Assembly: GCA_018267095.1 (NCBI GenBank)
Contig: JAFDZC010000018.1
Span: 372,001-436,000 of the forward strand
DNA length: 64,000 nucleotides
Direction of reading: 5' to 3'
Source: Bacteroidota bacterium
GTDB taxonomy: Bacteria; Bacteroidota; Bacteroidia; Flavobacteriales; Flavobacteriaceae
Below, in pieces: positions 708 through 62,607 of this stretch. The position numbers and the translations under genes were made by a program. The stretch's first letter is position 1, and each line of letters begins with the position of its first letter. Below the pieces are notes generated by a model. It was given only the letters and a program-made list of their open reading frames with translations, was not told where the DNA came from and did no database searches.

Positions 708-783
708 GAAGCTTCATCCCGCTGTACGCACTATCTTTTTTACGCAAGCTTCAAAAAGGATAGTCACTGCCATCGGGGCTAGG
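708..783 (+). repeat. Dispersed hairpin element, copy A
   Basis: Copy of the window-wide family: left arm starting GAAGC with CCCGCTGTACGC, a core that pairs as CTATC-TTTTT with AAAAA-GGATAG, and a right arm ending ATCGGGGCTAG. It lies between the convergent permease and accD genes, upstream of the accD terminator hairpin. Orientation is +. Confidence 0.75.
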
Positions 784-814
784 GGTTCTGTGTTTGCTTA
801 AAAAAATTCAATCA

Positions 815-11158: not shown

Positions 11159-11235
11159 GAAGCTGTTCCGGCTGTTTGCTGCAATCTTTGGCTGCGCTGC
11201 GCTGCGCCAAAGGATTTTTGCGTCCATCCGGGCTA
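11159..11235 (+). repeat. Dispersed hairpin element, copy B
   Basis: Left arm GAAGCTGTTCCGGCTGTTTG, core stem TTTGGC-(t)-GCGC pairing with GCGC-CAAA sequences, right arm ending ATCCGGGCTAG. It lies between the asnS terminator and the rpoN promoter, both on the minus strand, while the element is in + orientation. Confidence 0.75.
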
Positions 11236-11250
11236 GTTTTGAATCGTGTA

Positions 11251-20379: not shown

Positions 20380-21161
20380 AACACAGAAAGCGGATGAACA
20401 AAAAAGTGAATCAACAGTAAAATAAGTCCGACTACAATTCGGTAATAACCAAAAACTTTAAATCCATGTTTGCTCAGATAACCAATAAAGGTTTTAATGG
20501 CCAACATCGCTACAATAAAAGCCACGACATTGCCAATGATGAGCAATTGGGTTTGTTCTCCGGTCAAAACCAGGCCGTCTTTGTAGTAATCATAACATTT
20601 TTTTACCGTCGCGCCCAACATGGTCGGAACCGCCAAAAAGAATGAAAACTCAGCAGCGGCTGTGCGCGATAATTTCTGACTCATACCGCCCACAATGCTG
20701 GCTCCGCTGCGCGAAACACCCGGAATCATGGCCAAACACTGAAAAAGTCCAATTTTAAAACCTTTGATATAAGTGATTTCGGTTTCTTGTGCTTGTCCGA
20801 ACCAATCGTCTACTTTTAAAAGTAAAACGCCACCCGCCAAAAGCGATATAGCCACAGTAACCGGATTCTCGAGCAAAGCGTCGATTTTTTTATTGAAAAT
20901 CAATCCCAAAACCACCGCCGGAATAAAAGCAACCAAAAGTTTAAAGTAAAAATCCAGCGTCTGTAAAAAGCGTTTGAAGTACAAAACCAATACTGATAAA
21001 ATGGCACCGAGTTGAATCACGATGGTAAAAAGTTTCGTAAACTCTTCGTGTTCAATGCCAAAAAACGAGCTGGCAATAATCATGTGGCCGGTAGAAGACA
21101 CGGGTAAAAATTCGGTAATGCCTTCAATAATCGCCAATACCAACGCTTGTAATGTATTCAT
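20376..21161 (-). CDS. uppP: Undecaprenyl-diphosphatase (BacA family)
   Basis: Integral membrane enzyme of 261 residues that dephosphorylates undecaprenyl pyrophosphate, recycling the carrier lipid for peptidoglycan. Signature motifs: [19 protein letters not shown] at the N-terminus (catalytic Glu-rich motif) and [16 protein letters not shown] in the middle; about eight helices. Overproduction is known to give bacitracin resistance in other bacteria. Third gene of the ftsX operon. Confidence 0.97.
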
Positions 21162-22452: not shown

Positions 22453-22528
22453 TTAAGGCCGCCCGCTATTCACTGCAATCTGCCTCGCCAACATGGCTCG
22501 GCAGGATTTCCGTTGCTATCGGGGCTAA
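22453..22528 (+). repeat. Dispersed hairpin element, copy C
   Basis: Left arm CGCCCGCTATTCACTGCAATC, core TGCC-tc-GCC pairing with GGC-tc-GGCA around a 5-base loop, right arm GGATTTCCGTTGCTATCGGG then GCTAA. It lies in the 290-bp gap between divergent ftsX and leuS, probably within the leuS leader. The left end GAAGC is not preserved. Nothing else is recognisable in this gap. Confidence 0.7.
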
Positions 22529-22618
22529 AAATCAAAAACGCATATTCGCCGGAAGCTTTAATCCCGTGCGCCAAACATAAATCAACCATAATTCAACTGT
22601 CTTTGCGACAGCCATCAC

Positions 22619-32486: not shown

Positions 32487-32563
32487 GAAGCTTTATCCCG
32501 TTTTTCGTTCTATCTTTGGCTTGTAAAGAACCAAGCCAAAGGATGCCACTGCAACCGGGGCTA
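32487..32563 (+). repeat. Dispersed hairpin element, copy F
   Basis: Left arm GAAGCTTTATCCCGTTTTTC then TATC, perfect 9-bp core stem TTTGGCTTG / CAAGCCAAA with an 8-base loop, right arm GGATGCCACTGCAACCGGGG then CTAT. It lies between the divergent DUF3108 and DUF423 genes. Its left arm contains TATCTTTG, which equals the flavobacterial -7 consensus. Confidence 0.8.
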
Positions 32564-32626
32564 TAAAATCCGAATATTAACAAACAAAATTATAATCGAA
32601 TATTTTTCATTTTTAGTATCAATCTC

Positions 32627-47844: not shown

Positions 47845-47943
47845 GAAGCTATTTCCTGCCATTCGCTGTATCTTTTTCAAAGCAAAACCTATGCTGCGCG
47901 TCGGTTTGGCTTTAAAAAAGGATGCCGCTGCTGTCAGGGCTAA
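47845..47943 (+). repeat. Dispersed hairpin element, copy G
   Basis: Left arm GAAGCTATTTCCTGCCATTC, core TTTTTCAAAGC-AAAACC pairing with GGTTT-GGCTTTAAAAAA, right arm GATGCCGCTGCTGTCAGGGC then TAA. It sits between the preceding operon's terminator and the dnaG promoter. The longest copy (99 bp). Confidence 0.8.
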
Positions 47944-47971
47944 AGGATGCCGAAACATTCGCGAAACTTTG

Positions 47972-51547: not shown

Positions 51548-51626
51548 GAAGCTATTTCCTGCTGTCCGCTGTATCTTTTGCCTGTTAAAGAAACAGGCAA
51601 AAGGATGCCGCTGTCATCAGGGCTAA
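51548..51626 (+). repeat. Dispersed hairpin element, copy H (best-formed)
   Basis: Left arm GAAGCTATTTCCTGCTGTCC then GCTGTATC, perfect 11-bp core stem TTTTGCCTGTT / AACAGGCAAAA with a 5-base loop, right arm GGATGCCGCTGTCATCAGGG then CTAA. It lies between divergent nadE and gldB and would be in the gldB leader. Confidence 0.85.
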
Positions 51627-51640
51627 TTTGATTCGCATTT

Positions 51641-62493: not shown

Positions 62494-62572
62494 GAAGCTA
62501 AATCCTGCTGTACGCTTTTATCTTTCGCGGCGAACCCCGCCGCCAAAGGATAGCCGCTACCATCAGGGCTAG
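62494..62572 (+). repeat. Dispersed hairpin element, copy I (inside dcw operon)
   Basis: Left arm GAAGCTAAATCCTGCTGTAC then GC, core CTTTCGCGGCG pairing with CGCCGCCAAAGG, right arm ATAGCCGCTACCATCAGGGC then TAGG. It lies between murD and ftsW within an operon whose other genes almost touch. Confidence 0.85.
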
Positions 62573-62607
62573 GCAACCCACTAACCGACAACTCAGAAAC
62601 GTCAATC

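Follow-up and report, generated by a model that had tools for sequence, protein, structure and literature searches.

The stretch of 64,000 nucleotides analyzed here, referred to as the window, comes from a member of the Flavobacteriaceae, probably a Flavobacterium, and carries seven short intergenic hairpins, named A, B, C, F, G, H, and I, all matched on the minus strand by the Flavo-1 model (RF01705; cmscan, Rfam 15). Scores range from 49.5 to 72.8 bits for a cut-off of 42 and E-values from 1.1e-7 to 4.2e-14, and the hairpins are certainly members of Flavo-1. The initial annotation of this DNA had described seven clear copies and a divergent one, D, and had named Flavo-1 as a candidate identity. 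The seven copies are real and the identity is borne out, as testified by seven matches of seven above the gathering score; D, unmatched by the Flavo-1 model at E-values up to 1, is not confirmed. Compared with the Flavo-1 arms, those given in that annotation are in reverse complement. Copy H is flanked by nadE and gldB (neighbors assigned by Pfam), and its conserved GCTTC end and A-rich stretch lie immediately below position 51551 in plus-strand numbering. By GldB (87–88%), the nearest named relatives are Flavobacterium sp. CYK-55 (G183) and a pond MAG, Flavobacterium sp. (G184), which serve below as a reference for each site.

Table 1. Flavo-1 copies of the window and the state of their equivalent sites in two relatives
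Feature	Position	Strand	Rfam match	Equivalent sites
Flavo-1 copy A	711..784	-	RF01705, 49.5 bits	G183 carries an element
Flavo-1 copy B	11161..11238	-	RF01705, 56.2 bits	Occupied in G183 and G184
Flavo-1 copy C	22455..22530	-	RF01705, 60.9 bits	Different core and altered arms in G183 and G184
Flavo-1 copy F	32490..32566	-	RF01705, 63.1 bits	Occupied in G183 and G184
Flavo-1 copy G, long core	47848..47945	-	RF01705, 65.8 bits	Occupied in G183 and G184
Flavo-1 copy H	51551..51628	-	RF01705, 72.8 bits	Occupied in G183 and G184
Flavo-1 copy I	62497..62574	-	RF01705, 66.9 bits	Flavo-1 with a different core in G184

Hairpin architecture and covariation

Flavo-1 is a dispersed intergenic repeat of ~80–90 nt, running from CCCTAGCCCNGAT to AGCNGG and continued by GCTTC and an A-rich stretch. 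The consensus drawn by eye reads, for the 5' part, CCCTAGCCC-N1-GAT-N2-G-n-AGCGG-n(1-2)-ATCC-TTTT before the core and, for the 3' part, AAAAGAT..AGCG..A-N2'-AGC-N1'-GG after it, followed by a few nucleotides, GCTTC, and the A-rich stretch. The last two elements lie at or past the end of the Rfam model, and a rough pattern count places about 20 of the copies of this genome near a second subfamily with a GCGTGAGGGAT 5' end and a CCCGACCC-type 3' end; in these three features the present description goes beyond the ends of RF01705.

The arms of the bulged hairpin into which Flavo-1 can fold are conserved and covary, and its core pairs and can be exchanged. In an alignment of 45 copies from this genome, 94.1% of the cells of 22 pairs are paired and 189 cells are altered on both sides, against 50.8 in shuffled alignments; sliding the partner by one to three columns lowers pairing to 37–49%. 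Four of five covariation measures exceed all 500 shuffles, while the fifth, the number of pair types, is unexceptional and is reached by 64 of the 500. The arms covary as well as the core: the pair N1/N1' is C-G, G-C, or U-A in 45 of 45 copies, and N2/N2' takes all four Watson-Crick states in 43 of 45. Strong covariation extends to two other species (G129 and G155), whose 59 copies, in an alignment that had been fitted to the structure, are 97.3% paired and show 298 both-side changes against 76.9, with 40–50% pairing after sliding. When window copies were folded singly, copy C gave no excess stability (z of -0.87 as DNA).

Cores that differ between copies and still pair, as described in the initial annotation, are a genuine property of the copies; a wholly free core is not, because loop types and likenesses to copy H recur. 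Two recurrent loop types, near GGGGTT and TTCTTT, were recognized by eye, and full-length look-alikes of copy H are found in congeneric species, with up to 88% identity (weaker ones are listed down to 77%), where the flanking genes are mostly 64–73% identical.

Abundance of Flavo-1 in the genome and in related bacteria

With 150 out of 626 candidates scored, the whole genome has at least 118 Flavo-1 matches with E <= 0.001, one of them counted twice, and 101 of the 118 reach 42 bits or more. The double count stems from one element repeated with its flanks at two contig ends (G000 C16 6-77 and C18 178777-178848), probably a single place split by the assembly. Matches were found in 39 of the 41 genomes of the genus, G137 and G139 being those without, with 0 to at least 87 per genome (to at least 86 outside this genome), and in 77 of 120 genomes of the family, with counts taken up to 36 per genome; G183 has 112 and G184 has 114. 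None of 14 control genomes has a match. The total for this genome is near one hundred, in line with the many genome-wide copies that the initial annotation had named as support.

Carriage by viruses or plasmids was considered and rejected: one exact Flavo-1 pattern had no match in viral contigs, and blastn with copy H had none in plasmids and phages. Genes between close pairs of copies were likewise set aside: of 29 ORFs, 10 were compared with Pfam, and all of these are ordinary.

Conservation of sites and exchange of cores

Closely related species mostly share their Flavo-1 sites. G183 carries an element at the equivalent site for 17 of the 18 copies compared, the exception being copy I, and all 11 sites covered in G184 hold an element, with a composite at A and a differing element at I. 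At the copy I site of G183 (L058 near 20880-20930), Flavo-1 is replaced by a short near-tandem repeat of AGCGCAGCG with T-runs; both motifs are also present in some Flavo-1 cores. At the copy A site of G184, Flavo-1 arms surround a different hairpin element that replaces the core.

Over 17 of these 18 sites (copy I left out), the two arms are 91.7 and 91.5% identical between this genome and G183, the core is 84.6% identical with 16% gapped, and the near 5' and 3' flanks are 79.7 and 88.9% identical, which sets the arms apart from the 5' flank and hardly from the 3' flank, the latter being partly coding. Among 16 sites (159724 and 186211 and the composite A of G184 left out), 5 have an unrelated core that still pairs in a relative, as recognized by eye: C, I, 126095, 193040, and 218174. 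At site 193040, the arms are identical at 30 of 30 and 28 of 30 positions and the core is replaced; at site 135180, several pairs are altered together; and in copy F, relative to G183 and G184, one core pair is altered on both sides and one is broken. Copy H is perfect here and has a G.G mismatch in G183 and G184, which indicates that pairing is not absolute.

Pairing could also be maintained by a mutation mechanism instead of selection, if template switching in a quasi-palindrome rewrites one arm after the sequence of the other, so that both sides change together. The changes observed are in line with such copying: nearly all of them replace one Watson-Crick pair with another, G.U intermediates are few, and entire cores are swapped and still pair. 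Correction of this kind should, however, erase the unpaired positions and the bulged C that persist in most copies, and conservation of the arms exceeds that of the 5' flank, if only slightly that of the 3' flank. Together with the strand asymmetry of the mismatches described below, which would be unexpected without strand-specific selection, these observations make template switching quite improbable as the source of the pairing.

No clean pair of filled and empty sites and no target duplication, the marks of a MITE-like mobile element, were found among the sites compared in this genome, G183, and G184. The flanks of one G184 element (G184:C29:54699) match DNA of this genome ~1 kb apart, and those of a G183 element (G183:C1:76696) matched none of the DNA compared. 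Since neither an enzyme nor a clean empty site was found, mobility is something that we infer. Among 55 loci searched, a same-strand element lies just upstream of gldB in L058, L059, L063, L076 and, weakly, L067, with GldB identities of 62% for L063, 55% for L076, and 58% for L067; an element at about the distance of copy G, as judged by distance alone, occurs in L074 and L076. The sites upstream of gldB are either old or repeatedly hit.

Orientation of Flavo-1 relative to genes and replication

Flavo-1 is not neutral towards genes. Where both neighbors run in the same direction, the Rfam strand is antisense to them in 67 of 98 cases, as counted with transcription direction inferred from simple longest-ORF gene calls over the copies of this genome of 45 bits or more (41 antisense to 20 sense), G155 (14 to 5, p = 0.064 alone), and G129 (12 to 6, p = 0.24 alone). 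With all copies of this genome, the ratio is 47 to 26, and 73 to 37 when pooled. Of 160 copies, 105 have the 5' end, CCCTAGCCC, turned towards the start of a gene (p = 9.5e-5), with no clear preference at the 3' end (90 to 70, p = 0.13). Median distances to the flanking ORFs are 48 and 43 nt.

These features bear on the possibility that Flavo-1 is an RNA element, either a small RNA made from every copy or a hairpin in an mRNA leader or between cistrons with an effect on stability, processing, or expression. Rfam files RF01705 as an sRNA gene, a cis-acting role could explain the preference of the 5' end for gene starts, and several Flavo-1 matches of F. psychrophilum are placed in transcribed 5' regions in PMC9723704. 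Against this, the structured strand is mostly not the strand taken as transcribed from ORF direction, as a cis-acting mRNA element would call for, being antisense more than twice as often as sense (67 against 31), the short distances to the ORFs leave little room for promoters of its own, and the copy number runs from 0 to over 100 inside one genus. An independent RNA from each copy also fits badly with the RNA-seq statement in PMC9723704, where matches are described as sense or antisense alike and many as lying outside transcribed regions.

A role in replication polarity was rejected, as strand is random with respect to replichore halves in G129 (59 copies) and G155 (81), with the origin taken from dnaA and the far half assumed. 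A spacing role was rejected as well: the spacing of copies is random, with a CV of gaps of 1.08–1.11. Along the genome, 59 of 104 neighboring copies lie on the same strand against 54.5 expected (p = 0.21), so that runs occur at chance and the seven of seven copies on one strand are a local feature of the window.

Mismatch asymmetry on the Rfam strand

A hairpin formed by a single strand tolerates G.T and does not tolerate C.A, whereas in a double-stranded cruciform the two mismatches are one event viewed from either strand. Read on the Rfam strand, the cores of this genome contain 37 G.T against 8 C.A (115 of 118 copies, 3 with cores <10 nt left out, by a scoring that treats both alike), and those of G155 and G129 contain 16 against 1 (53 of 59 copies, 6 weak or partial matches left out). 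A further 25 orthologous cores, picked by place and not by score and not independent of each other, contain 10 G.T and no C.A. The excess persists when copies are split by gene orientation (168 of 171 items covered), with 23 G.T against 6 C.A in 72 copies antisense to both neighbors and 10 against 0 in 37 sense copies.

Copies scoring under 60 bits show the bias less strongly (16:5, compared with 21:3 for the rest), and part of it may be due to ascertainment, as covariance models favor G.U over C.A. At odds with a single folding strand, the arms alone show no G.T excess, with 2 G.T and 8 C.A in this genome and 15 G.T and 11 C.A in G129 and G155, 8 of these 11 falling at a single pair beside the bulge. 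Over the full hairpin of the copies of this genome, with conserved internal-loop positions counted in, C.A (110) exceeds G.T (65). Among standard pairs, G.U makes up 0.4–4.2% in Flavo-1 and 8.9% in the 18 tRNAs of the compared loci; such scarcity is as expected of DNA, with tRNAs being an imperfect yardstick.

The core excess of G.T over C.A on the Rfam strand, antisense copies included, is new here. An RNA hairpin would be expected to show such an excess on that strand too. The excess is, however, neither reversed nor lost in antisense copies (23:6), so that the strand that folds seems to be the Rfam one whatever the inferred direction of transcription; with the scarcity of G.U added to the orientation data, we consider an RNA element unlikely. 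The initial annotation had offered an RNA or a DNA cruciform as the structure under selection. A symmetric cruciform is disfavored by the strand asymmetry, and an mRNA element by the fact that antisense copies retain this asymmetry; the claim is refined here to a single DNA strand: the G.T excess fits one strand of ssDNA folding better than it fits either alternative. We tentatively regard Flavo-1 as a strand-specific DNA hairpin repeat in which the Rfam strand works as ssDNA, a reading that falls a little short of probable. Counting against it are the mismatches of the arms and of the full hairpin, the possible ascertainment, the preference of the 5' end for gene starts, the failure to find an enzyme, a target duplication, or a clean empty site, and the unexceptional fold of copy C.

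Search for a mobilizing enzyme

As an alternative, the initial annotation had suggested a REP/REPIN-like element mobilized by a transposase, with a RAYT (Y1) as the enzyme to look for; such an enzyme would have to have been lost in this clade. Size, intergenic location, copy number, and the bulged hairpin all resemble REPs. The Y1_Tnp model has no match in this genome, compared with 27 of 41 genomes in the genus, and the RAYT model NF047646 has none here or in the copy-rich G123 and G149; its cut-off is exceeded in G183, G155, and G132, with a fragment in G184. The counts of Y1 and Flavo-1 are uncorrelated over the 41 genomes (rho 0.014, p = 0.93), and genomes with a RAYT-type Y1, as sorted by the length and score of the matches, tend to have more copies (Mann-Whitney p = 0.098).

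The RAYT genes of G155 (L124 2989-3720), G132 (L127 4921-5627), and G183 (L297 9974-10651) are flanked on both sides by other inverted repeats. These are 31–41 nt long, with GATAGCGCGGATTTGCAATCCGTGC in two and CCCCGCTACCGCGCGAATCC in the third, and are the probable REPs of these RAYTs. No Flavo-1 (E <= 0.1) occurs in a 20-kb stretch around the G183 gene, and one lies ~1 kb from the G155 gene. Four were found over 19 stretches (144 kb; 19 of 20 searched) around Y1 genes and one in 10 others, which is about background. At the 5' foot, an exact GTAG is found in 0 of 118 copies, a loose G[TC][AG]G in 10, and CTAG in 65. Membership among REP/REPINs is not supported, as Flavo-1 has no GT[AG]G foot and other inverted repeats flank the three RAYT genes compared; given the lack of correlation and the other repeats at the RAYT genes, movement by a RAYT since lost is very improbable. 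At a separate locus, L120, two sub-threshold Acido-Lenti-1 matches in opposite orientation (1330-1375, minus, and 1939-1984, plus) bracket a match to a Y1 transposase.

A recombination site of an integron integrase, similar to attC, would also have conserved bulged arms, a variable terminal part, and one-strand folding, as described in PMC8946536.

The R boxes of attC read RYYYAAC / GTTRRRY. None of the 118 copies has them at both feet, and none of 10 genomes has an integron integrase over the TIGR02249 cut-off; weaker matches are general tyrosine recombinases and occur likewise in control genomes. Copies are single and randomly spaced and form no arrays, and the attC reading, rejected on these grounds, is scarcely credible.

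A second dispersed hairpin

A second dispersed hairpin, X, is defined by the pattern TTAARAGGAGGNNNNCCAGTGGNNNNCAGGTA (e.g. in L164, L171, L181, L186, and L192). It has 20 matches in this genome, 21 in G183, 12 in G184, 5 in G129, 1 in G155, and 0 in five others; the reversed pattern has none, and X itself gave no Rfam match in the 14 loci scanned. Its stem varies in sequence and keeps its pairing. A large number of copies are bracketed by direct repeats of 9 to 38 bp; their 5' edge is sharp, and the tail differs in length between copies. In L181, L188, and L186, the direct repeat seems to include a gene start (E2-like and mgsA-like, by eye), which would leave that gene start present twice. 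X was found inside or beside the Flavo-1 5' arm, preceded by a partial copy of the arm, in L156 near 5149, L157 near 12569, and L162 near 6602, and in L152 near 1761, the copy A site of G184, it takes the place of the core, with a Flavo-1 arm on either side.

Discussion

ERIC and similar intergenic palindromes have, to our knowledge, no known transposase. Like Flavo-1, they are dispersed, keep old sites, and take up nested insertions; their sequences are not known to be related to it.

Flavo-1 has been catalogued and filed as RNA since 2010 and has stayed unexplained. The elements described here belong to the same family as the motif of Weinberg et al. 2010 (PMC2864571), as judged from the seven window copies above the gathering score. 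They differ from the sRNA entry RF01705 in that the structured strand is mostly antisense to its neighbors and behaves like a DNA hairpin repeat. PMC9029176 ranks Flavo-1 among the most abundant bacterial sRNA families without a function, and none is stated in the passages on Flavo-1 of PMC2864571, PMC9723704, and PMC9029176. Passages of open-access work on Flavobacterium repeats and REPs (PMC12306157, PMC3733652, and PMC5859164) draw no link to Flavo-1, and a reading as an ssDNA hairpin was not found in print in the open-access literature searched.

Flavo-1 shares with the REP/REPINs of RAYTs, as presented in PMC6006769, the form of a short, intergenic, bulged hairpin at high copy number that is likely read on one strand; it differs in lacking the GT[AG]G foot and the link to a RAYT, the RAYTs of the genus carrying other repeats. 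The likeness to attC, on the basis of PMC8946536, extends to bulged conserved arms, a variable terminal part, and strand-selective folding, whereas R boxes, an integron integrase over the cut-off, and cassette arrays are absent.

Taken together, Flavo-1 may be a strand-specific ssDNA hairpin with bulged arms read by a protein and a self-complementary core that acts as an exchangeable cassette, spread by neither a RAYT nor an integron integrase; this joint reading is plausible, if still on the doubtful side. The working form would be the Rfam strand folded as ssDNA, for example while the DNA replicates or exchanges strands. The bulged arms would be read by a protein that binds or cuts DNA, and the core would be needed merely to close the hairpin. 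Copies would have spread in the past by a single-strand route via some enzyme, and those of the present clade would be mostly immobile and vertically inherited, with an occasional exchange of the core. An RNA product would not be required.

Counting G.T against C.A mismatches, split by gene orientation, is a cheap way to discriminate RNA from ssDNA that could be applied to other orphan motifs. If Flavo-1 is indeed a DNA element, surveys of sRNAs in Bacteroidota count a DNA repeat among them, and the search for its function would shift to a DNA-binding or DNA-cutting protein.
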